From a virus, in IMG/VR virus record IMGVR_UViG_3300021401_000027, positions 1 through 32,005 of that record: 32,005 nucleotides of DNA. The stretch is one strand, 5' to 3'. The notes beneath the pieces are model-generated. The model was not told where the DNA came from and searched no databases. It saw nothing but the letters and a program-made list of their open reading frames with translations. This document shows positions 5,221 through 27,253 of the stretch, piece after piece. Made by a program: the position numbers and the translations under genes. The stretch's first letter is position 1, and each line of letters begins with the position of its first letter.

Positions 5221-5433
5221 TTAATTGGCAGTAGGATTAAGAAGTTCGTGGCATTGCTGGATGAAGATTTCGCGTGTCATCCCTTCTTTCCCATTATCCC
5301 ATGCACGCACAATGCTGTTTGACTGCACTAACCCTACCAAACAAAGGATAGGGAGTCTGTGTTTTTGGCAATGAACTTTCAAATCGAGCACCATCTTTGC
5401 AGCCTGCTCTTCTGCGGTGAAAGGTGAATCCAT
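5221..5433 (-). CDS. Small hypothetical protein, 70 aa
   Basis: Start placed at 5433 (MDSPFTAEEQAAKMVLDLKV) since the upstream gene stops at 5435 in TAATATG; the longer frame to 5466 would overlap it heavily. The sequence has a helical N-terminus and a hydrophobic core segment (LPILCLVGLVQ) too short for a secure membrane helix, then WDNGKEGMTREIFIQQC. No family was recognised. Confidence 0.55.
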   Translation of the reverse strand: MDSPFTAEEQAAKMVLDLKVHCQKHRLPILCLVGLVQSNSIVRAWDNGKEGMTREIFIQQCHELLNPTAN

Positions 5434-5434
5434 A

Positions 5435-5743
5435 TTAGTCGGTGTGTTGAGCAGGGAATGAATCACGAGGATCCAGTTCCCTTGGTTTATTTATATTCGC
5501 GGGTCCTTCTTGTGGACGATCAAGCAACGTCAAAGCCGCTACCGCTTGTAACCGCGCATCGCTATCCAAGCGTGACATCATTCCAAGTTTGATGTTAGGA
5601 CTGTTGGGATTGATGGCCGCTGCAAAGCGCACCACAAGCAAAGGGTGCTCCATTAGAACCCAAAGCTCCGCGGTGCTCGTAAGTGGATTGGATGCCTTGT
5701 TAAGGGCATTCCAGATTACTGTTTCGTTTGGTGTTAGGTTCAT
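5435..5743 (-). CDS. Hypothetical protein with HEAT-like helical pattern, 102 aa
   Basis: Start at 5743 (MNLTPNETVIWNALNKASNP) chosen over a TTG at 5830, because ATG at 5743 forms an ATGA overlap and the longer version would bury two coupled small ORFs. The middle (HPLLVVRFAAAINPN, LDSDARLQAVAALTLL) repeats a helix-turn pattern with Asn-Pro and Asp turns like HEAT or Armadillo-type units. That reading is an inference from pattern only. The C-terminus is charged and Pro-rich. Confidence 0.6.
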   Translation of the reverse strand: MNLTPNETVIWNALNKASNPLTSTAELWVLMEHPLLVVRFAAAINPNSPNIKLGMMSRLDSDARLQAVAALTLLDRPQEGPANINKPRELDPRDSFPAQHTD

Positions 5744-5793
5744 AAATTTGGTGCGGGCTGGCCTGCGGGTTGGATGGGGGTTGGGTCGCTCAT
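5740..5793 (-). CDS. Possible 17-aa leader-type ORF
   Basis: MSDPTPIQPAGQPAPNL lies between two ATGA overlaps (5790-5793 and 5740-5743). It is proline-rich and far too short to recognise. It may be a real micro-ORF that passes ribosomes to the 102-aa gene, or simply a spacer that happens to be open. The perfect overlap at both ends is the only support. Confidence 0.3.
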   Translation of the reverse strand: MSDPTPIQPAGQPAPNL

Positions 5794-5933
5794 TTGCGTG
5801 TCCTCGCGTATTTGTAAACCTTTGCGGCAATCTGGAAAAGTTCTCTCTGTTGATATTTTGGAAGCAGATGAATTGTGCCGTTAACTGTTTGGCAACGTAG
5901 GATGAAACGAACTAAGTGCTTAGGCGTGCTCAC
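5790..5933 (-). CDS. Small basic hypothetical protein, 47 aa
   Basis: GTG start at 5933 overlapping the upstream TGA (GTGA), and ATGA overlap at the 3' end. The sequence MSTPKHLVRFILRCQTVNGT, then IHLLPKYQQR and AAKVYKYARTRK, is strongly basic and could bind nucleic acid, but no fold is recognisable. It fills what would otherwise be a 140-base gap. Confidence 0.45.
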   Translation of the reverse strand: MSTPKHLVRFILRCQTVNGTIHLLPKYQQRELFQIAAKVYKYARTRK

Positions 5934-6388
5934 GCTCCACCCGCTTTCTGTGTGGCGGCGTGCGCTGCGATGGACTGCACAAGCGCGTGCGCTCCGTGCG
6001 GGTCTTTTATTTCTCCATCAGAATTCGACCATAACGGGTGTCGGTCGCTGTAGTAATGCGCAAAAAAGGCAGCCTCGTTCAGCAATCGAGCCAGCTCAGC
6101 GTTCGCGCTGCTCAGGGCAGCCTCTCTATCTACTCCGCGCTGAACCATATCAGCGGACACTCTAGCGCGCTGTTCGGAAGCTGCGGATAAATTGTCGAAA
6201 GCCGCCACCATCGCGGCGTTCTCGCGCTCGAGCTTGGATCGTAGGTGGTTGCTCGACCTCTCTAAATCTCGCATCCGATCTTTAACATACTTTAAACCAC
6301 ACTCTCGTAATTCATACGACTCGAATGCATCATCCGTAATGGGCGTTCTCGGCGTCGGCACGCTGGCGGGGGGGTTGTCGGTAGTCAT
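5930..6388 (-). CDS. Coiled-coil hypothetical protein, 152 aa
   Basis: After a Pro/Thr-rich start (MTTDNPPASVPTPRTP), the protein has a long charged helical region (LKYVKDRMRDLERSSNHLRS, KLERENAAMVAAFDNLSAAS) typical of a coiled coil, then a globular end with aromatic residues (NEAAFFAHYYSDRHPLWSNS) and an Ala/His-rich tail. The start overlaps the upstream stop as ATGA. The function is unknown. Confidence 0.6.
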   Translation of the reverse strand: MTTDNPPASVPTPRTPITDDAFESYELRECGLKYVKDRMRDLERSSNHLRSKLERENAAMVAAFDNLSAASEQRARVSADMVQRGVDREAALSSANAELARLLNEAAFFAHYYSDRHPLWSNSDGEIKDPHGAHALVQSIAAHAATQKAGGA

Positions 6389-6549
6389 TTCAGTTTGATG
6401 TTTACCTTGCGTTCGTTCCTTCGCTTAGAGCGGTAGTTTCTGTAACGATGCGAATGCTCCGCCGCATAATCACTTAACTGTTGGCGCTTGCTCCACGACA
6501 AAATAAGCACAAGCAGGAAATGGATAAAGTCGTGGATGGACTCTTTCAT
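6385..6549 (-). CDS. Small basic protein, 54 aa
   Basis: MKESIHDFIHFLLVLILSWS gives a short hydrophobic helix (about residues 8-19). It is followed by a very basic tail with many Arg, Lys and Tyr (YRNYRSKRRNERKVN). It could be a membrane-bound basic peptide. ATGA overlaps at both ends support it. Confidence 0.5.
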   Translation of the reverse strand: MKESIHDFIHFLLVLILSWSKRQQLSDYAAEHSHRYRNYRSKRRNERKVNIKLK

Positions 6550-6677
6550 TTCTCTTCCTTGTCTTTCCTATTGGACATCATCCTGCAAAAATTACCCCAC
6601 ATATTATCAATGATACACAGCACCATAAAAACAATAACACAGGTGCAAATAGGGTGGGCTGTGCAAAAGTCTTTCAT
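6546..6677 (-). CDS. Tiny Cys-rich membrane protein, 43 aa
   Basis: MKDFCTAHPICTCVIVFMVL contains three cysteines and leads into a hydrophobic helix (about residues 10-24, ending LCIIDNMW), then a basic tail (MMSNRKDKEEK). Its start at 6677 overlaps the stop of the candidate small terminase as ATGA, and its stop overlaps the next start as ATGA. No family was recognised. Confidence 0.5.
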   Translation of the reverse strand: MKDFCTAHPICTCVIVFMVLCIIDNMWGNFCRMMSNRKDKEEK

Positions 6678-7453
6678 ATTGGAATAGCCTGCTTCATTAC
6701 ATTATCGCTTGATCCATTAGTCAGCTGCTTCTGCGCTTCCTCCGCTTGTTGGAGCTCCTTCATTGCTGTCTCTATTTCGAGAAGGCACTCTACGGACAAC
6801 TTCAATTTATGGAGCGGAAGCACGTTGTGATTTATGGTCCCTGTGTGCTCGATTGTCAGCTTGTCAGAATATCCACGTTTCGCGTTATAAGTTCGGTTGG
6901 CAAAGATTACCGCAAGTGGATGGCCTTCCTCCGCAAGCTTCAACAGTCCTTTCTCAAAGAAATTCCCTTTGTGCCACTCCATCTCTCTTATCAGCTGTTG
7001 GAACTTAGGATCCCGTTCTCCCCATCCCTGCAAGATGCCTAATGGTACATTGACAATGCGGCACGCCTCACTCGCATTGAAGTTTGTCGCTATCATGGCA
7101 TGGAGCCATAGTTGCTGTCGTACTCGTGTAGGATATCTGCCTAATAGTGTCTGGGTAAGCTCATGTCCATTCTTTTGATCGGCATTCCATTCTATCTCGT
7201 CCCACAGCTTGCGCATATCCTCAGATAGATGGTTATACACATAATCTGCGTACTTCTCTGTTTTCTCAGTGTCTTTCCTTGCTAAGTCTATCGCATATCT
7301 GAGGGCCTCATGCTTTTGCACCCATCCGTTGAAGTTAGTAATATGGATATTTAGAGCACGCGCTAGCTCCATGTTACTGAGCCCTGTCTTGGCTAAGATG
7401 TATGCATCTACGGGCACTCTGTCGTTATATTTCGTGGGAGTTCCTTTAGCCAT
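6674..7453 (-). CDS. Candidate terminase small subunit / double HTH DNA-binding protein
   Basis: A 259-aa protein with two helix-turn-helix-like segments. The first is GLSNMELARALNIHITNFNG (about residues 24-43). The second is around residues 120-150 (NASEACRIVNVPLGILQGWG followed by RDPKFQQLI), a layout typical of phage small terminases and of phage homeodomain-like proteins. Residues ~205-220 (NAKRGYSDKLTIEHTG) match a sequence often seen near the end of small terminase subunits, which recognise packaging sites and recruit TerL. TerL lies about 4.5 kb downstream rather than next to it, so a regulatory DNA-binding role remains possible. It overlaps the preceding gene by 8 bases. Confidence 0.55.
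   Translation of the reverse strand: MAKGTPTKYNDRVPVDAYILAKTGLSNMELARALNIHITNFNGWVQKHEALRYAIDLARKDTEKTEKYADYVYNHLSEDMRKLWDEIEWNADQKNGHELTQTLLGRYPTRVRQQLWLHAMIATNFNASEACRIVNVPLGILQGWGERDPKFQQLIREMEWHKGNFFEKGLLKLAEEGHPLAVIFANRTYNAKRGYSDKLTIEHTGTINHNVLPLHKLKLSVECLLEIETAMKELQQAEEAQKQLTNGSSDNVMKQAIPI
6700..6708 (-). promoter_or_regulatory. GCGATAATG motif near a gene end
   Basis: GCGATAATG lies inside the last codons of the 259-aa gene, about 24 bases upstream of the next start at 6677. This is the one member of the motif set that falls fully inside a coding region, still close to a gene boundary. Confidence 0.25.
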
Positions 7454-8837: not shown

Positions 8838-9016
8838 GCATGTAATTGGGATTTCGTTTGCGCCATTCGGCTCCGTATCGTTTCCAATAGGCTTTGATAT
8901 CCTTTGTTTTGGATCCCCACGGCGCTTTCATAAATTATAGTGAGCAGTTTCACCACATGCTCAGGTGGTCCAGCTTCAACTAACAATTCCTGCGAATCGA
9001 CGCGCAGGAAATTCAA
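8834..9016 (-). CDS. Small hypothetical protein, 60 aa, TTG start
   Basis: It begins with TTG at 9016, overlapping the queC stop (TTGA), and ends in a GTGA overlap. The sequence MNFLRVDSQELLVEAGPPEH, then VVKLLTIIYESAVGIQ, suggests a small helical soluble protein. The rare start codon lowers confidence, but both overlaps fit the general pattern of this genome. Confidence 0.5.
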   Translation of the reverse strand: MNFLRVDSQELLVEAGPPEHVVKLLTIIYESAVGIQNKGYQSLLETIRSRMAQTKSQLHA

Positions 9017-9741
9017 GTTTGGTTTTCGTAGGTGAGTTTGAAGTTATTCTTAACGAGGAGCTCCAGCGAGGGAGCGTCTGCGGCGTACTCAGTGGGGTCA
9101 GGGATGCCTGCGAGGTAGAATGCCTCTCTGCGCTCGATGCAGGTACCACAGCGCCCACAATGCAGAGGACCCCCAACATAACAACTCCAAGACTCGCGCA
9201 AGTCAACACTAAGCTCCGCAGCTCGCTTGACAATATCGGCCTTGCTCATGTGAATGAACGGACGAATAAGTTCGATCTGGCGATAAGTGCCTTTGTGGAT
9301 GGCGCCTGCCATGTTGATCATGAAATCCTCACGGCAATCAGGATAGATCGCGTGGTCGCCGGCGTGAGCTGCAATGACAACACCATCCGCCTCGAGGCTC
9401 TCGGCAAGGCCTGCTGCGATCGACAGCATGATGCCATTACGAAACGGCACCACCGCGTGCTTCATCACATCCGCCTCATAGTGGCCAGGAGGGATCGTGC
9501 CGCCTGACATGAGCAAGTGACTCTTGAAGTAGTGGCCGATGAAGCCCAGCGGGAGCGTGTAATGCGGCAGCTTGAGCTTGTCCGCGTGCAATGCTGCAAA
9601 AGGAAGCTCTTTCGGGTTGTGCTTGCTGTTGTAATCAAAGCTAGCAACACCCACCACCTGATAGTCGTTGTGAGCTGCGATATGGTGTAGTGCTGTGACT
9701 GAATCCATTCCGCCTGAGCAGAGGACGATGACTTTTTTCAT
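9013..9741 (-). CDS. queC: 7-cyano-7-deazaguanine (preQ0) synthase QueC
   Basis: QueC converts 7-carboxy-7-deazaguanine to preQ0 using ATP and ammonia. The 242-aa protein starts MKKVIVLCSGGMDSVTALHH, with the PP-loop SGGMDS at residues 9-14. It ends with the zinc knuckle CYVGGPLHCGRCGTC (C187, C195, C198, C201), both diagnostic. I chose ATG 9741; the frame is open further upstream but would run into queF. It lies about 50 bases after queF and about 14.6 kb from folE/queE/queD, so the pathway is split between two loci. The leader CAACTCAAATATACATCAA lacks a Shine-Dalgarno. Very likely functional. Confidence 0.96.
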   Translation of the reverse strand: MKKVIVLCSGGMDSVTALHHIAAHNDYQVVGVASFDYNSKHNPKELPFAALHADKLKLPHYTLPLGFIGHYFKSHLLMSGGTIPPGHYEADVMKHAVVPFRNGIMLSIAAGLAESLEADGVVIAAHAGDHAIYPDCREDFMINMAGAIHKGTYRQIELIRPFIHMSKADIVKRAAELSVDLRESWSCYVGGPLHCGRCGTCIERREAFYLAGIPDPTEYAADAPSLELLVKNNFKLTYENQT

Positions 9742-20642: not shown

Positions 20643-20651
20643 TATTATCTC
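20643..20651 (-). promoter_or_regulatory. GAGATAATA, variant of the recurring motif
   Basis: The motif overlaps the polymerase stop codon (AGT TGA GATAATACC). It differs from the main form at the second base. The next start is 120 bases away. Confidence 0.25.
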
Positions 20652-22152
20652 AACTTGGTAATTCATTTAATTTCCATTTGTTGAGTATCTCTAAAGCAGT
20701 ACCTATAAAGCCGTCTTTGTCTTTGTAGTTATTACTATCTGCGACGGGCTCGATGGGTCGTTTGTCCCACCAGGACTTACCAATCGGACTTAGTTCAAAC
20801 TCAACTGTTAGCGGAACTATAATCCATTTCCAGTGAGCAGGAAGATCCATATTGATAATGCGCCGCACGATTGCATAGAAAGCATCAATCTCATCAATAG
20901 CAATGTCAGCAACCACGGAGTCATGCACTTGTCCCACCAACTTTGTTTTCATCTTCAAGCGGCGCAGCTCTTTTTGGAGCTGGATAATAAACCAAAGCAA
21001 ACAGTGAAACGCAGATCCCTGGACCGGATAGTTGATAACTTCGTTCTTGCGGAAGACTCCGCTAACATCAAAGCCCGTAAGAGTTTTGAAGCAGCCTTTC
21101 TTGAGATAGTCTTCGTACCATTTCTTCTTCCACTCCGTGTAGACACTGAAACGATTGTTCCAAAAGTCGTCCTCTACTTGCTCCACATGGTGTTGGAACG
21201 TGCCTTTGAGTGGATGTCTATCTTCGCCGCCTGGCTCCCAATCTCCTAGGCTCGTGATGCCTTTTTGTTTCAAGTGCTCGCGCAACGACGCACCATCCAC
21301 CACAAGCTTAGAACGATCGATTTCTTCCCATAAGGATTTAGCGCAGGACTGCCACCAGTCTCCATAGAACTCAGGAAACACAAATTTATTCTTTGCTGCA
21401 TGACGGATCTGTTTGCTGACTTGCGCCTTCTTCAGCTTGTATATTTGCATCGCCATGTCACGGTGCATATCTTTCGTGACGTCTGTAATATACTCAATCA
21501 TCACCGGGTCTTTGTGATAGCAAGCACCTACACATACCTCCGCCCCTTTGAAGTCAATTTCGCCTAGTACATGGCCTTCACTCGCTATAAATGAAGTCCG
21601 GATCAACTTTCCCATCTCTGCGTCACGTACCGGCTGGTTTTGAAAGTTAGGAGAGTCACACGAGCTTCTAAAAGTAACTACCAAATGGAGATTATAGACA
21701 GGATGACACCTATCTCCTACTACTTCGCGACGAATTCCTTTTAAGTAAGTGCCTTGCGCCTTCTGCAGTTTCTGATATTTGAGCCAGCCTCGCACACAGC
21801 CCAAGTCAATTACCTCGAGGTCCGCAATTTCAGTTGAAGGTCGCCCGCTCGCTGTTTTAGCTCGAGACTTGAAGCCCATGCCTCCTTTGTCTGTGGGACT
21901 AAATAAGATTTCACCAAGCTGCTCGCGGCTATCTAAATTCATCTTCACACCAAACCGCTTCTGCCACATCCGACCTATGTCGTGTGTACGCAGCTTGTCT
22001 CTCAATGCTTTTATCTTGATGTCAGACGACGCTATCGCTTTGTCAAGGTAGTCGACATCCACTCGAATCCCATCACTCTCCATTTGCGATAGCGCAAGGA
22101 TCCCTTCGTGGAAGAGTTCATATCCTGCATGAGTGGAGGGAGTCAAAATCAT
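20650..22152 (-). CDS. Family A DNA polymerase, polymerase domain only
   Basis: A 500-aa protein with only the polymerase half. Visible motifs: TFRSSCDSPNFQNQP (about 160-174), motif A GEIDFKGAEVCVGACYH with D200, the O-helix pattern R250...K254...YG, NYPVQGSAFH (374-383) and motif C QVHDSVVAD (HDS at 410-412, where classic PolI has HDE). The missing 3'-5' exonuclease is in the preceding gene, overlapping as ATGA, so both chains probably form one enzyme. Only ring-clamp and loader genes of bacterial type are nearby. The call is secure; the biological partner set is inferred. Confidence 0.94.
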   Translation of the reverse strand: MILTPSTHAGYELFHEGILALSQMESDGIRVDVDYLDKAIASSDIKIKALRDKLRTHDIGRMWQKRFGVKMNLDSREQLGEILFSPTDKGGMGFKSRAKTASGRPSTEIADLEVIDLGCVRGWLKYQKLQKAQGTYLKGIRREVVGDRCHPVYNLHLVVTFRSSCDSPNFQNQPVRDAEMGKLIRTSFIASEGHVLGEIDFKGAEVCVGACYHKDPVMIEYITDVTKDMHRDMAMQIYKLKKAQVSKQIRHAAKNKFVFPEFYGDWWQSCAKSLWEEIDRSKLVVDGASLREHLKQKGITSLGDWEPGGEDRHPLKGTFQHHVEQVEDDFWNNRFSVYTEWKKKWYEDYLKKGCFKTLTGFDVSGVFRKNEVINYPVQGSAFHCLLWFIIQLQKELRRLKMKTKLVGQVHDSVVADIAIDEIDAFYAIVRRIINMDLPAHWKWIIVPLTVEFELSPIGKSWWDKRPIEPVADSNNYKDKDGFIGTALEILNKWKLNELPS

Positions 22153-23351
22153 TTGCGGAACATCTTGTCTTGTCTCTTTGCTACTTTGTATTCGAGCAGC
22201 GCATCCATGGCGCAGTAGTGCAGGAGCTGGCGCAAGTCGATTTCACTTTTAGCTAGGTTCGTCTTTTTGTCTTTCACACCTTGCAAGAATTGTTTGATGT
22301 GATCATCGTAGGAAGGAACACCAAGCAGCGCGAAAGCTTGGAACTTCAAACCCGTAATTCCTTCCCTGTTGTCAAGACAGTGAGCCGCCAGCATAGTGTC
22401 CCATGCCCAATGCCTCACTCCTTTTCCAAAGAGGAATTTAGTAAACCTATTTTCATACTTCATGTTGGAAGCGATGAAATGGCAGTTGTCATTCCAAAGC
22501 AGCTCCTTGGTTGCTGAAATAGCTTCACCATGCCAGGGGTATGCGATGGTCTGCTGACCTTGCAGACAAACCGATGCGCAGATAACCTCTGCGCCCTCAT
22601 ATTCTGGCTTTAGCGAGGTGGCTTCGTAGTCAAAGGCTAGTTGACCCCCTCGGCGTGCAAACACTCGTAGAATCTCCGCTGCTTTGTTCGTGTCTATTAC
22701 CACTTCAACATCCTTTTCCCAATCAGGCACTGTTTCCCAAGGTCTCGCTTCGTGCGCAAAAGCTTTCTCGAGATGTGCTGCAAAGAATATGTCAAGAACC
22801 TCGTTGTGTTCACGCAACAAATAAGAAGGGTGGTAGGTGGGACAGATCCACGCATTCAGTTTCTGGCAGGGTATATTCCATCCGACCCAGCGTGACAGCT
22901 CGCCTACACTCTCTTTCCAGATTTCACCGATCACTGATTTAACTGCGGAGCCTCCTAGGAGAATAATCACTCGCGGCTTTAGTTCGCGGATGGCGCGCAT
23001 CACATTCGGGCGGCAGTATTCAATGGCTTTAGGGTCACTTATTTTGTTGTCAGGCGGACGACAGATTAGTGCGTTGGTGACCCAGCAATCTTTGTCAAAG
23101 TCAACTCCGATGGCTTTCAGCGTTGTGCGCAGCAAGTCACCCGCTTTCCCAACAAACGGCCTTCCGCGTTCGTCCTCGTTAGCTCCGGGAGCCTCACCAA
23201 TAACTAAAACTCCTTTTCGTCCTTCACCATAGACAGGCATCTTGGGACTTTTGCATGTTTTGGACAAACCACAAACACCACAACGAGGCAAAAGTGAAGG
23301 CGTGGCTGTGGGTTTTAAAACAGCCGAGGCAGGGAAAAAGCCGCGACTCAT
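22149..23351 (-). CDS. Family 4 uracil-DNA glycosylase fused to 3'-5' exonuclease
   Basis: A 400-aa two-domain protein. Residues ~20-200 are a family 4 UDG: the four iron-sulfur cysteines sit in CGVC (24, 27), ICRPP (97) and YCRPN (113), the active-site segment is GEAPGANEDERGRPF (52-66), and PTYHPSYLLR contains H174. Residues ~210-400 form a DEDD-type exonuclease: FDYEA (D241, E243), SNMKYENRF (position 300 is Glu where many members have Asp), DTMLAAHCLD and YCAMD (379-383). It starts four bases after the sliding-clamp stop and overlaps the polymerase gene by ATGA. Proofreading plus removal of U from DNA in one protein is the natural reading. Confidence 0.92.
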   Translation of the reverse strand: MSRGFFPASAVLKPTATPSLLPRCGVCGLSKTCKSPKMPVYGEGRKGVLVIGEAPGANEDERGRPFVGKAGDLLRTTLKAIGVDFDKDCWVTNALICRPPDNKISDPKAIEYCRPNVMRAIRELKPRVIILLGGSAVKSVIGEIWKESVGELSRWVGWNIPCQKLNAWICPTYHPSYLLREHNEVLDIFFAAHLEKAFAHEARPWETVPDWEKDVEVVIDTNKAAEILRVFARRGGQLAFDYEATSLKPEYEGAEVICASVCLQGQQTIAYPWHGEAISATKELLWNDNCHFIASNMKYENRFTKFLFGKGVRHWAWDTMLAAHCLDNREGITGLKFQAFALLGVPSYDDHIKQFLQGVKDKKTNLAKSEIDLRQLLHYCAMDALLEYKVAKRQDKMFRK

Positions 23352-23354
23352 GTC

Positions 23355-24365
23355 TTATTCTTTGACAGGAGCGAGGCAGGCGATGAAAATCCACTTACCG
23401 CCGTTGACTCTTAATCGACCCTCGGTGATTTCAGCCTCATTAAAGTTCTTGGTGATTTCAATAAGCATGAGCGGAGCAATCATGAACGCGAGTGCGGGAC
23501 CTGTATATTTTAGTTCTTTGCGTTCTTTGTACCAGCCGCTTGCTCCTGTGCCTGTGATGCGCAGCTTTCCCGGGCGCAGCTCGACTAACACTTGCGCCTT
23601 GTCGTCGTTCTCTTGCGCGAATACTGCCGCCTTGTCAGCAGCATCGCCTAAGCCTTTCGGCAAGTGGATAGGCTGTCCTTTCACTTTGAGTAGCGCGGAA
23701 AGGTCGTGGTAGTTCTCAATGAAACGACGACAGGAAAGCATCAGCCCTGCCGGGTTCTTGAAATGGATCCAAGTATCCGTTTCACAGAACTGAGTCATCC
23801 CAAGAAGCGCCACGTGCTTGATCGAATCACGCCGCACAAGGATGTCCTGTTTGATTTCCGTCGCTACTTTGACGCGAGTCATTTTAGAGTTGTCACACGC
23901 CTCCACATAGGTCGGAGTGATGTGGATGCACGTCAGCGCAAATTGGGATTCATCACTCGAGGCGCAATGCTGCACGAGATCAATCGCCTCCTTAAAGGAT
24001 TCGTCCAGCGCAAGCCACTTGCCGGGCTTCTCGACTCCCGAGATCGGAAGCTGGATTTCGGCTTCACAAGTGACACCGCATTCGCGCTTGGTGCCGATAA
24101 TCTTGATTTCACCCTCACCTGCTTGGATTTCAAGCTCCTCTTCAGGCAGCTTGCGCAGAATCGAAAGCAGCGCAGCAGAACGCACCGCGCCTTCAATGCC
24201 GATGTCACATTCTTGTGTGCAAGCAATTTCGTCGTTGAACGTGATCACTTTTCCGTCTTTGAAAACATAGCACGAGCTTTGCTCGATGATCTCTCGACTA
24301 GAGAGACCCGCTTGAACGGATTCAAGCTGAAGGAGAAACTTTTCGCGGTTTATGGTTTTGCTCAT
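23355..24365 (-). CDS. DNA polymerase sliding clamp (DnaN-like)
   Basis: A 336-aa, beta-clamp-sized protein with three domains of similar length (about 110 residues each), a negatively charged middle and a C-terminus ending FIACLAPVKE. Representative stretches: INREKFLLQLESVQAGLSSR, VRSAALLSILRKLPEEELEI and VEACDNSKMTRVKVA, the last resembling clamp domain-2 sequence. The start (24365) was chosen because MSKTINREKF fits clamp N-termini and the leader CCTACCACAAAC fits other genes here. It overlaps the preceding small gene by 44 bases. The three-domain fold is inferred from sequence pattern. Confidence 0.85.
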   Translation of the reverse strand: MSKTINREKFLLQLESVQAGLSSREIIEQSSCYVFKDGKVITFNDEIACTQECDIGIEGAVRSAALLSILRKLPEEELEIQAGEGEIKIIGTKRECGVTCEAEIQLPISGVEKPGKWLALDESFKEAIDLVQHCASSDESQFALTCIHITPTYVEACDNSKMTRVKVATEIKQDILVRRDSIKHVALLGMTQFCETDTWIHFKNPAGLMLSCRRFIENYHDLSALLKVKGQPIHLPKGLGDAADKAAVFAQENDDKAQVLVELRPGKLRITGTGASGWYKERKELKYTGPALAFMIAPLMLIEITKNFNEAEITEGRLRVNGGKWIFIACLAPVKE

Positions 24366-24579
24366 GTTTGTGGTAGGTTCTGAATCGTTGCCAGGCGGTG
24401 CTGCCTTTAGTATTGGTTTTAAGATCGTAGAAGGAAAGCATGATGAACGGATTGTGCTCTTGGATGAGACGCTCCGGGAATACGCCCGCCCCACTCACAC
24501 CTGAAAAGAAAATGCGCGTGTGATCTCCTTCCTCCTTAGGCAAAGGAAGCTTCGGGAGCTTGGGAATAGATTCGTTCAT
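24322..24579 (-). CDS. Small protein resembling N-terminal part of a DpdA barrel, 85 aa
   Basis: After a Lys/Pro/Leu-rich start (MNESIPKLPKLPLPKEEG), the core TRIFFSGVSGAGVFPERLIQ and NPFIMLSFYDLKTNTKGSTA looks like a first beta strand, helix and second strand (IFFSG...; ..IMLSFYDLK), as seen at the start of phage DpdA-like barrels. The adjacent dpdA gene begins directly at what would be the next strand (SLFIDSGAHS). The ATG shares one base with the dpdA stop (TGATG). I infer that it supplies the missing N-terminal unit of the enzyme as a separate chain. A stand-alone small protein is the alternative. Confidence 0.5.
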   Translation of the reverse strand: MNESIPKLPKLPLPKEEGDHTRIFFSGVSGAGVFPERLIQEHNPFIMLSFYDLKTNTKGSTAWQRFRTYHKHEQNHKPRKVSPSA

Positions 24580-25529
24580 CAGTGGACGAGGCCGAAGCCT
24601 TTGTCAGGATTAGTATATTGGAAAGGGCGAGGGTACGGAAGCGACTGCGCGAACAATTGAAAGTACACTACATTCGCACGAGCGCGGGCTTCATAACAAC
24701 TCGTCACGCCCCACACGTCTTTTGTCCCTAAGGGCGTACCGATACGGTCCAGCCACTCCTCCACAATCCTGCGCGTGTCTTTGGTGAGATTGAGAACGTG
24801 TCCATTCTTATCATGGATCGTTGTGCTCTCTTGGCTGACTCCGATGATGTAAGGCGGCTCAGTGAAAACGTACTGACCTTTCCGCTTGTGCGGAATGAGA
24901 ATACGTCCGTAGGCAGCAATCTTGATCCAAGAGGCTGAGTCAACCGACCACCAAGGATAGCGAAGCAATAGCTCCCAGCTTGTCATCGCAAATCCGTGCG
25001 TTCGCACAAGTGGCAGCTTGTGCGGAGCGGGACAGAGGAAATGAAATACTTTGTCAGCCCAGGGCAAAAAGGAACTTTTCGTGATGCCTTGTCCCAATCC
25101 GCCGATGCCTATAAATGTGTGGCCGCGTTCAATATACTTGGCAAACCATTTCAGCTCCGAGTGGCAATGGATAACAGGCAAGGGCTTCAATCCATACTCT
25201 TCTTCGAGCAGCATCGTAATCTCCCAAGTCTTTTCGGGATTGTAGATGGCGTCAAGGGTAACGTAGTAATCTACCGCGTGCTTGTAATGTTGGATGAAAG
25301 AGGCATAGGATTCAAGGAACTTGCGGAACTCGGATCCTTTTTTAAGGTCGAAGAACTTGTACTTATCTGTCAAGCTCAGCGCATCCTTGCGCTTATTGTC
25401 CGTGTCTGCTTCCTTGTTGTACAGCGAATGCGCACCGCTGTCAATGAACAGACTTCCGATGCGTGTAGGAATTCCCTCGCCTCGAAACTTCGGCTTGGGT
25501 CCTAGCTTCTCTTTCTTCTCCTTGATCAT
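24579..25529 (-). CDS. dpdA: DpdA-like DNA transglycosylase (7-deazaguanine insertion)
   Basis: DpdA is the TGT-related enzyme that exchanges guanine in DNA for a 7-deazaguanine. The 316-aa protein shows the family strands and loops: SLFIDSGAHS (D30), DYYVTLDAIYNPEKTW (D93), PLPVIHCHSELKWFAKY, FIGIGGLGQG (139-148) and RTHGFAMTSWELLLRYPWWS with SVDSASW (D197, candidate nucleophile). It lies between folE and the sliding clamp, inside the biosynthetic cluster. The usual N-terminal strand/helix unit is not obvious at its start and may be in the next gene. A tRNA-type TGT is less likely by context. Confidence 0.8.
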   Translation of the reverse strand: MIKEKKEKLGPKPKFRGEGIPTRIGSLFIDSGAHSLYNKEADTDNKRKDALSLTDKYKFFDLKKGSEFRKFLESYASFIQHYKHAVDYYVTLDAIYNPEKTWEITMLLEEEYGLKPLPVIHCHSELKWFAKYIERGHTFIGIGGLGQGITKSSFLPWADKVFHFLCPAPHKLPLVRTHGFAMTSWELLLRYPWWSVDSASWIKIAAYGRILIPHKRKGQYVFTEPPYIIGVSQESTTIHDKNGHVLNLTKDTRRIVEEWLDRIGTPLGTKDVWGVTSCYEARARANVVYFQLFAQSLPYPRPFQYTNPDKGFGLVH

Positions 25530-26098
25530 TTGAGCAGAGAAATGAATTCAGCTCGCGTCTCAGGCTCGTCTTTGAACGCCCCGCGCAGAGCCATCGTGGT
25601 CGTTTCAATGTTATACCGACAGATGCCTCGAGACTCCATGCAAAGGTGACGAGCGCGAACAAACACACCTACACCCAGCGGCTTCAAGTGTTCTTGGATA
25701 GCATCTGCTATTTCTTTAGTCAGGCGCTCTTGTACCTGCAGACGGTGCGCAAAGATGTCAACAAGACGCGAAAGCTTGCTCAGCCCGACAACCTTGCCGC
25801 TGGGTATATACGCGAGCGACACGGTGCCAAAGAACGGCGCTAAATGGTGTTCACAGTGTGAATGGAATGGAATGCCGTGTTGGCAAATCATTTGATCATA
25901 CCCCTCGCCACCGTCCTCAAATACTTTGAACACAGAAGCGACGTCTTTGTGGTAGCCTTCTGTCCAATGCTTCCACGCACGGCAGACCCGTGCAGGTGTT
26001 TCGCGCAAGCCCTCGCGCTGCACATCAGGAGCCAGCATAGACAACATGCTAGCAACTCGTTCTTCAAATGGCTTGCTGCCTTCAGAAATGTCTTCCAT
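25526..26098 (-). CDS. folE: GTP cyclohydrolase I
   Basis: FolE makes dihydroneopterin triphosphate from GTP, the first step of 7-deazaguanine synthesis. The 190-aa protein has the zinc motif HSHCEHHLAPFFG (C82, H85) and RARHLCMESRG with C153, plus SKLSRLVDIFAHRLQVQE typical of the active-site region. It is the third gene of a compact queD-queE-folE-dpdA series: it starts two bases after queE and ends in an ATGA overlap with dpdA. Nothing suggests loss of activity. Confidence 0.96.
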   Translation of the reverse strand: MEDISEGSKPFEERVASMLSMLAPDVQREGLRETPARVCRAWKHWTEGYHKDVASVFKVFEDGGEGYDQMICQHGIPFHSHCEHHLAPFFGTVSLAYIPSGKVVGLSKLSRLVDIFAHRLQVQERLTKEIADAIQEHLKPLGVGVFVRARHLCMESRGICRYNIETTTMALRGAFKDEPETRAEFISLLK

Positions 26099-26099
26099 A

Positions 26100-26801
26100 T
26101 TAGTAACCTAGTTCAGGATTGCCGCCTAGAGGCGCGAGTGGTTGCGTTCTATTATCGAGAGCATCAGCACGAAAGAGTTTGTGGAGTTGATATCCCGCTC
26201 TCCAAGGATCTCCTGTAAATTTGACTTGGTGTGTTATGGCTTTTAGAATAGCAGGATCGTTTCGTTTCGACCACTCAGGATGTAGCCATATAGTTGCTCT
26301 TTTATCCATCCATGCTCCGTTTAACTCGAAAAACAACTTCTCATTCCAATAAGGAATATCAGCCGGTTCTTCAATAATCAATTTGAATTCATTTGCTGCA
26401 CGAACTACAGACTCTAGGGCGGGCTTAGCCCATTTGTCTTTAGGGGATACTGTAATCCATTGAAAAGTTCCTTGAAGGGGATATGCTCCGCTTGTTTCAA
26501 TGTGGAGGGGGATTCCTTTCAGCTCAGCACACACACTCAAAGTTTTAAGATTATGAATAGCGGGCTCCCCTCCTGTCAGAACTATAAACTTGGATTTTGA
26601 GGCTGCGGCTTCATTCACCAATTCAACTTCATTCATCCTCAAAATCTTATCGGGGATATAGTTGGGGTGCCATGTGCCTGCCGAATCACACCAAGGACAA
26701 TGTTGTGGGCATCCAAATGTCCGAATAAAGAATGCTGAGCGTCCCATGTGAATTCCTTCCCCTTGGAAAGAATGGAATCGTTCTGAGATCGGAAGACTCA
26801 T
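26100..26801 (-). CDS. queE: 7-carboxy-7-deazaguanine synthase QueE (radical SAM)
   Basis: QueE converts carboxy-tetrahydropterin to 7-carboxy-7-deazaguanine with a 4Fe-4S cluster and S-adenosylmethionine. The 233-aa protein has SERFHSFQGEGIHMGRSAFF near its N-terminus and the cluster motif RTFGCPQHCPWCD (C31, C35, C38, i.e. CxxxCxxC), followed by the SAM-binding region VLTGGEPAIHN. The start overlaps queD by ATGA. The cluster order and intact motifs indicate a working enzyme. Confidence 0.95.
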   Translation of the reverse strand: MSLPISERFHSFQGEGIHMGRSAFFIRTFGCPQHCPWCDSAGTWHPNYIPDKILRMNEVELVNEAAASKSKFIVLTGGEPAIHNLKTLSVCAELKGIPLHIETSGAYPLQGTFQWITVSPKDKWAKPALESVVRAANEFKLIIEEPADIPYWNEKLFFELNGAWMDKRATIWLHPEWSKRNDPAILKAITHQVKFTGDPWRAGYQLHKLFRADALDNRTQPLAPLGGNPELGY

Positions 26802-27253
26802 GCTTGGATGGAAAAGGTTGCGGAGTTGCGGCTATCTTCGTAAACAGTAACCTTGCAAACTTCCACGAACCGTTTCCCATGCCGGATATTATCTTTGAAG
26901 AAAAAAGTAAGATTGACTTGCTCCAACAGCCACTTCGCAAGCCCCTCAGCGCCGCAGTTCGGCACCACAACAATGGCAGCGAGCTTGGGTTCGCTCAACT
27001 GCGTTTTGAAAAAGGACAGCAAAGGATCCCCTTCATTGAGAACAAGTGTGTGGTCGAACAAGGCAGTAAGCCAATTCTTCAAATCCTTGAGCTTGCCGAA
27101 GTCGACCACGAAGCCATTGTCGTCAAGCTCGACGCAACGGAACGTGAATTTAAAATCCCAATTATGTCCATGGATCAAAGCACAGTGTCCATCGTGACTG
27201 TGCTGGCGATGAGCGAACGGAAATTCTTTGTATTTTTTTGAGCAAGTTATCAT
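26798..27253 (-). CDS. queD: 6-carboxy-5,6,7,8-tetrahydropterin synthase QueD
   Basis: QueD turns dihydroneopterin triphosphate into 6-carboxytetrahydropterin. The 151-aa protein contains the zinc and catalytic region FAHRQHSHDGHCALIHGHNW, with C24 and the HGH pair at 28-30, and VDFGKLKDLKNWL followed by LDHT-like FDHTLVLN. It is the first gene of the queD-queE-folE-dpdA series, starting about ten bases after a terminator, so it probably needs its own promoter or read-through. No Shine-Dalgarno is seen. Confidence 0.95.
   Translation of the reverse strand: MITCSKKYKEFPFAHRQHSHDGHCALIHGHNWDFKFTFRCVELDDNGFVVDFGKLKDLKNWLTALFDHTLVLNEGDPLLSFFKTQLSEPKLAAIVVVPNCGAEGLAKWLLEQVNLTFFFKDNIRHGKRFVEVCKVTVYEDSRNSATFSIQA

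Follow-up and report, generated by a model that had tools for sequence, protein, structure and literature searches.

To our knowledge TIM barrels, which are among the commonest enzyme folds, are nearly always made of one chain. The barrel enzyme tRNA-guanine transglycosylase (TGT) has as its hallmark a C-terminal zinc site (CxCxxC...H). In a normal phage DpdA (DNA-guanine transglycosylase) the sequence MNLYLAAVYTN forms strand 1; a helix and strand 2, ILESYHY, come next, ahead of the strand-3 motif VFLDSGAFS. Titles cited in PMC11008142 indicate that known phage DpdAs prefer particular sequence contexts for the guanines they modify: by these titles, a 2020 study by Kot reportedly describes two motifs in CAjan, and for Pseudomonas phages a 2023 study by Olsen reports one motif only, GA. 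Deletion of dpdA in CAjan led to the loss of both modification and restriction resistance (PMC6884629). We analyzed a viral DNA of 32,005 nucleotides (IMG/VR record IMGVR_UViG_3300021401_000027, positions 1 to 32,005), hereafter the window, whose DpdA is very probably a two-chain (2+6) barrel that would insert preQ0-type bases into phage DNA.

The two open reading frames of this candidate enzyme, 25529..24579 (minus strand, 316 aa) and 24579..24322 (minus strand, 85 aa), were found exactly as an earlier note on this DNA had described them, with a one-base overlap within TGATG. The gene order on the minus strand is queD, queE, folE, the 316-aa dpdA, the 85-aa gene and a polymerase clamp gene. 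The features considered here were:

24579..25529, minus strand: dpdA main gene, 316 aa, predicted to supply transglycosylase barrel units (beta-alpha)3-8 and both putative catalytic aspartates
24322..24579, minus strand: 85-aa gene, candidate source of the N-terminal barrel unit that the main gene lacks, (beta-alpha)1-2
24577..24581, minus strand: TGATG stop/start overlap, with the dpdA stop and the start of the 85-aa gene, read from the sequence
25440..25442, minus strand: Asp30 codon (FIDSGAHS), putative counterpart of TGT Asp102
24939..24941, minus strand: Asp197 codon (SVDSASW), putative counterpart of the TGT nucleophile Asp280
24361..24519, minus strand: conserved unit core within the 85-aa gene, from alignment with 28 other units and permutants
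25526..26098, minus strand: folE, GTP cyclohydrolase I (Pfam PF01227, E 3e-66)
26100..26801, minus strand: queE-like radical SAM enzyme (PHROG 2076, E 2e-30)
26798..27253, minus strand: queD, 6-carboxytetrahydropterin synthase (Pfam PF01242, E 7e-25; PHROG 2389)
9013..9738, minus strand: queC, without a fused amidotransferase (Pfam PF06508, E 6e-51)

GTP cyclohydrolase I (FolE) is the first step to preQ0. The preQ0 pathway was complete in the window, with FolE, QueD and QueE encoded beside dpdA and QueC (9013-9738) completing the set. An assembly or sequencing artefact was ruled out, as the layout recurs in a second contig (L001) and in dozens of relatives, and a programmed frameshift joining the two frames was unsupported, as such a join would yield the normal order only if the second gene preceded the first. 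We also observed that folE of the window (25526-26098) and of L001 (422-1015) share just 68% nucleotide identity amid dpdA, unit, clamp and polymerase-exonuclease genes that are 94-97% identical, which suggests recombination. The family A polymerase of the window is divided between two genes (22149-23351 and 20650-22152), one open reading frame holding a uracil-DNA-glycosylase-like domain and a 3'-5' exonuclease domain and the next the polymerase domain.

The 316-aa chain begins with about 27 low-complexity residues followed by LFIDSGAHS, in agreement with the claim that it opens near the strand SLFIDSGAHS. Its match to PHROG 887 ('queuine tRNA-ribosyltransferase', E 5e-32) begins at profile position 57, leaving the first ~57 profile positions without a counterpart; a second profile matched was PHROG 7068 (E 7e-15), and a Pfam search with this chain gave no match. 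Both D30 and D197 were invariant among 36 homologues and, from structural order, would be the equivalents of TGT Asp102 and Asp280. Modeling with AlphaFold2 on the 36 homologues gave a pLDDT of 87.9 and a pTM of 0.81; the barrel strands lay at about residues 28, 88, 118, 139, 176 and 195, that is six strands and not eight. Foldseek alone returned no E below 0.001 for this model, while after VIA re-alignment the best 50 structures were all TGT or the bacterial DpdA 7ui4 (Z 12.8-13.4). In alignments starting past the low-confidence N-terminal stretch, model residue 21 corresponded to residue 93 of Z. mobilis TGT, and the model spanned TGT residues ~93-362 with ~40-92 missing; other alignment rows placed model residue ~16 at TGT ~54, within a stretch with pLDDT below 50. 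The modeling thus confirmed a predicted start at barrel strand 3, without the beta1-alpha1-beta2 of TGT. In the model, units 3-8 show the transglycosylase barrel fold, and the complete one-chain barrel, the outcome that would have spoken against the earlier note, was not what we found. The gap coincides with residues that floor the TGT substrate pocket, Val45 and Leu68-His73 (PMC5395182). A search of the 316-aa sequence for CxCxxC found none, so a TGT zinc site is lacking. The six strands matching TGT 93-362 and 7ui4 argue for a barrel of two chains.

Searches of Pfam and PHROG with the 85-aa protein gave no match, and it scored E 7e-18 against a unit HMM that included it as a seed. The parts of its core are, in order, beta1 (RIFFSG), a helix (PERLIQ), beta2 (IMLSF), and R-F with a basic helix. 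When 19 loose units of the window's clade were compared with 19 fused DpdA N-termini by hhalign, strands 1 and 2 aligned in register with a score of 26.6 (P=5.8e-6), bearing out the proposal that RIFFSG...IMLSFYDLK forms the upstream strand/helix/strand unit. This likeness is beyond chance, since the controls reached at most about half the score: column shuffling (200 rounds) peaked at 13.6, the reversed profile scored 9.4 and main-chain blocks 13.1. By profile comparison, then, the unit and the beta1-alpha1-beta2 segment of single-chain DpdAs are homologous, a second argument for the two-chain barrel. The best-conserved unit positions were S-G past strand 1, M-L-[TS]-[FY] of strand 2 and R-F of the next helix, and the most variable were the loops following the two strands. 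In TIM barrels the loops after the strands face the substrate.

The part of the 85-aa frame that does not overlap dpdA had dN 0.006 and dS 0.24 between the window and L001, a near relative with the identical gene pair, and its dN/dS of 0.03 came from few substitutions. Values of ~0.05-0.4 were obtained for nearly all unit pairs where the ratio was computable. Judged from these substitution patterns the 85-aa frame is under purifying selection, and ratios well below 1 in nearly all measurable pairs favor a functional second chain. They also bear on the reading that something such as a homing endonuclease disrupted dpdA in the window's lineage and that its pieces are decaying. Homing endonuclease genes do adjoin dpdA: one is annotated immediately ahead of it in phage NP1, and in L046 (4930-5703) an HNH-like endonuclease open reading frame, in frame with the unit, sits between dpdA and unit. 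One unit in L057 is divided over two frames, also as decay would have it. We nevertheless hold decaying fission remnants to be highly improbable, because both pieces are under purifying selection and kept across diverged phages, the coupling is tight and the catalytic residues are invariant. Homing or HNH-like endonucleases are possible agents of dpdA rearrangement.

Relatives were gathered as 80 loci with A1 as query and a further 27 via the protein of Edwardsiella phage ZHS (L-numbers are locus labels). Scanning 19,758 six-frame segments with unit HMMs (E up to 0.3) gave 205 hits on the coding strand, seeds counted; the opposite strand and the reversed decoys gave no hit. Among the rows of the dpdA tree, labeled by inspection with 14 left unlabeled, the unit was fused N-terminally in 39, fused C-terminally in 9 (L036, L052, L063, L067, L091, L103, L023, L024, L049a) and absent in cis from 35. 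Fused homologues in the normal order, for which the earlier note had advised a search, were plentiful, e.g. in Queuovirinae (L004-L007) and in the metagenomic L061. The reversed order that it described for this genome is correct in that the main part comes first in the window; the order is not singular, since relatives show several arrangements. Its reading of a two-chain or permuted barrel gained support from the C-terminal, permuted fusions. Whether a frame is fused or made of adjacent cistrons is uncertain in the ZHS and MKIYxAG clades, where a start codon immediately precedes strand 3 in some 'fused' frames. Cis and trans states were interleaved on the tree, with at least 21 changes among the three states.

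Separate unit genes were mostly directly downstream of dpdA, and 35 dpdA genes had a first loose unit that started within 5 nt of their stop. At least one loose unit was found in 63 non-duplicate loci, at least two in 40 and at least three in 27, with a maximum of seven; in L051 one unit precedes dpdA and at least six follow it in a row. The loose units of one genome have diverged to ~35% identity, with means of 23-56%, as against 60-90% for recognizable orthologues across phages, and so are maintained as separate genes, not as recent copies. Several loci showed further variation. A tandem dpdA pair in one phage occurs in L020, L049 and L050, and in L049 one dpdA is C-terminally fused and the other has separate units. 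L022 (3755-4025) has a tandem pair of unit-like segments fused ahead of one dpdA. In four distinct phage lineages the unit just upstream of dpdA is divided between two frames, with an (AG)4-5 tract coding for KERERE at the break (L070 ~2690, L098 ~3903, L109 ~3885, L111 ~3899); slipped-strand phase variation, programmed frameshift and assembly error are possible causes.

A loose unit lay within 4 kb of all 35 dpdA genes lacking a cis unit, of 18 of the 39 N-fused and of 1 of the 9 C-fused. Two apparent exceptions (L072, L084) were ruled out, each having a divergent unit directly downstream of dpdA. This complementary distribution, 35/35 against 1/9, argues for barrel completion in trans. Loose units beside an N-fused dpdA, where the barrel should already be complete, would better suit an accessory factor, derived from the DpdA N-terminus, that binds DpdA or DNA and leaves the barrel uncompleted; the conserved R-F and basic helix at the end of the units would also suit such a factor, e.g. 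a DNA-binding adaptor or a regulator with a basic tail. We consider an accessory role unlikely, as the main chain lacks exactly the piece that the unit represents, no dpdA that lacks a cis unit is without one in trans, and fusions exist in either order, as completion of a barrel permits.

The fusions in both orders, themselves an argument for two complementary chains, include the nearest relative of the window. Its dpdA is sister to the permutant L036 (SH-aLRT 99), a protein of 395 aa from a GTG start that is ~50% identical to the window protein, has the parts in the window's order joined into one chain, and ends in the unit sequence LQIYFSGLSGGGIYPEHMIAEKSPAIMLSF. A circularly permuted single chain is found in L036 and about eight other loci, and not in the window, where a stop and restart give two chains. 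The L036 model, built on alignment A7, had a pTM of 0.80, with residues 19-297 aligned to TGT 92-362 and unit strands at 338-341 and 361-365 followed by helices; confidence across the unit part was moderate (block means mostly 52-84). From the strand assignment and pTM of this model we infer that the unit docks into the barrel gap. A pooled AlphaFold alignment of standalone units and standalone main chains was dropped, as it left the units scattered over the alignment.

Units were tightly linked to dpdA. Whole-contig searches of ten contigs (586 kb) gave 19 unit matches, all 19 at a dpdA locus, and searches begun from units alone gave 31 loci (one already in the set), of which 29 had dpdA nearby, mostly within ~1.5 kb. 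Of the remaining two, L122 is a contig edge and L130 a preQ0 gene cluster with no dpdA in range. In the latter a queE-like gene (5227-6834) has an apparent intein-like insertion past its CxxxCxxC start. Occurrence of units only at dpdA adds to the case for the two-chain barrel and bears on whether the main chain alone already makes a complete six-stranded enzyme, with the unit just a coincidental neighbor. AlphaFold2 does fold the main chain alone with high confidence, but the homology of the unit, the linkage statistics and the coincidence of the gap with TGT pocket-floor residues (PMC5395182) leave this reading with next to no credence.

Among isolated phages, tblastn with the 85-aa protein gave no convincing homologue, and a scan of genome contigs with the main protein gave no match. 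ZHS was the sole isolate with loose units among those examined; of the others, L004-L007 have a normal-order fused unit by reading of the sequence and L145-L148 a dpdA of single-chain length by annotation. ZHS had been taken as simply split, which we revised: its annotated dpdA start (L003:1340-1480) is probably internal, and the upstream open frame, MILWPGGSPDYMKALRATREREVLRWLAPF, reads as a cis unit.

In the mechanism we propose, the phage-encoded FolE, QueD, QueE and QueC would make preQ0, and the two-chain DpdA would put preQ0 or a derivative into the phage DNA. The 316-aa chain would provide barrel units 3-8 with both catalytic aspartates, while the 85-aa chain, made by translational coupling from the overlapping downstream gene, would provide units 1-2 and close the barrel between strands 8 and 3. 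Relatives would carry the same quarter-barrel on the N-terminus, on the C-terminus as a circular permutation, or as several diverged loose units. We infer physical assembly, translational coupling, catalysis and the inserted base from the comparisons above.

Because there are several units per enzyme, the quarter-barrel units may be exchangeable specificity modules, one three-quarter barrel pairing in turn with several diverged units, an idea that we put forward tentatively and with some doubt. Each unit would then alter the nucleotide context, or the base, for placement of 7-deazaguanine in phage DNA. The high variability of the substrate-facing loops, the context selectivity of known DpdAs and the CAjan deletion phenotype are reasons for this idea as well as for the two-chain barrel; we counted against it that loose units are also retained in some genomes whose dpdA is N-fused. 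If true, it would be a natural combinatorial TIM barrel giving wider protection from restriction, which would be categorically new, and with a swappable unit beside the substrate pocket the origin of DpdA context specificity would become directly testable. Within this phage enzyme family a quarter of a barrel is a free, multiplied gene, and split, normal and permuted forms interleave on one tree, so that the unit family offers natural material on how barrels assemble and permute. As the family is unannotated, with no Pfam or PHROG match, many phage genomes hold such open reading frames as unnamed small proteins. The DpdA literature we searched, with incomplete coverage, contained no earlier account of a split or permuted DpdA, and prior notice is possible.

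Compared with known systems, the window enzyme is nearest to the phage DpdA of the 9g/CAjan type (Queuovirinae; PMC6884629), with which it shares the PHROG 887 family, the catalytic aspartate motifs and a genomic setting of preQ0 genes beside a polymerase clamp gene; that DpdA is a single chain of ~300-315 aa with beta1-alpha1-beta2 at its N-terminus, whereas in the window this part is a separate downstream gene. The bacterial DpdA of PDB entry 7ui4, a DNA preQ0 insertase, shares the main-chain fold (Z 13.0, 231 residues aligned) but is a larger single chain in normal order, as against two chains in the window. TGT shares the (beta-alpha)8 barrel and the Asp102/Asp280-like positions, and differs from the window enzyme, which has no CxCxxC in its 316 aa, has two chains and presumably acts on DNA. 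In Type I restriction-modification, HsdS offers a comparison of working rather than of homology, in that interchangeable small parts could each steer one catalytic core towards different DNA contexts. In engineered 6+2 complementation of PRA isomerase, fragments of six and two units reportedly come together as a (beta-alpha)8 barrel, and natural circular permutants of TIM barrels are known. Unlike those engineered fragments and single-chain permutants, the 2-unit fragment is here a natural multi-copy gene family.
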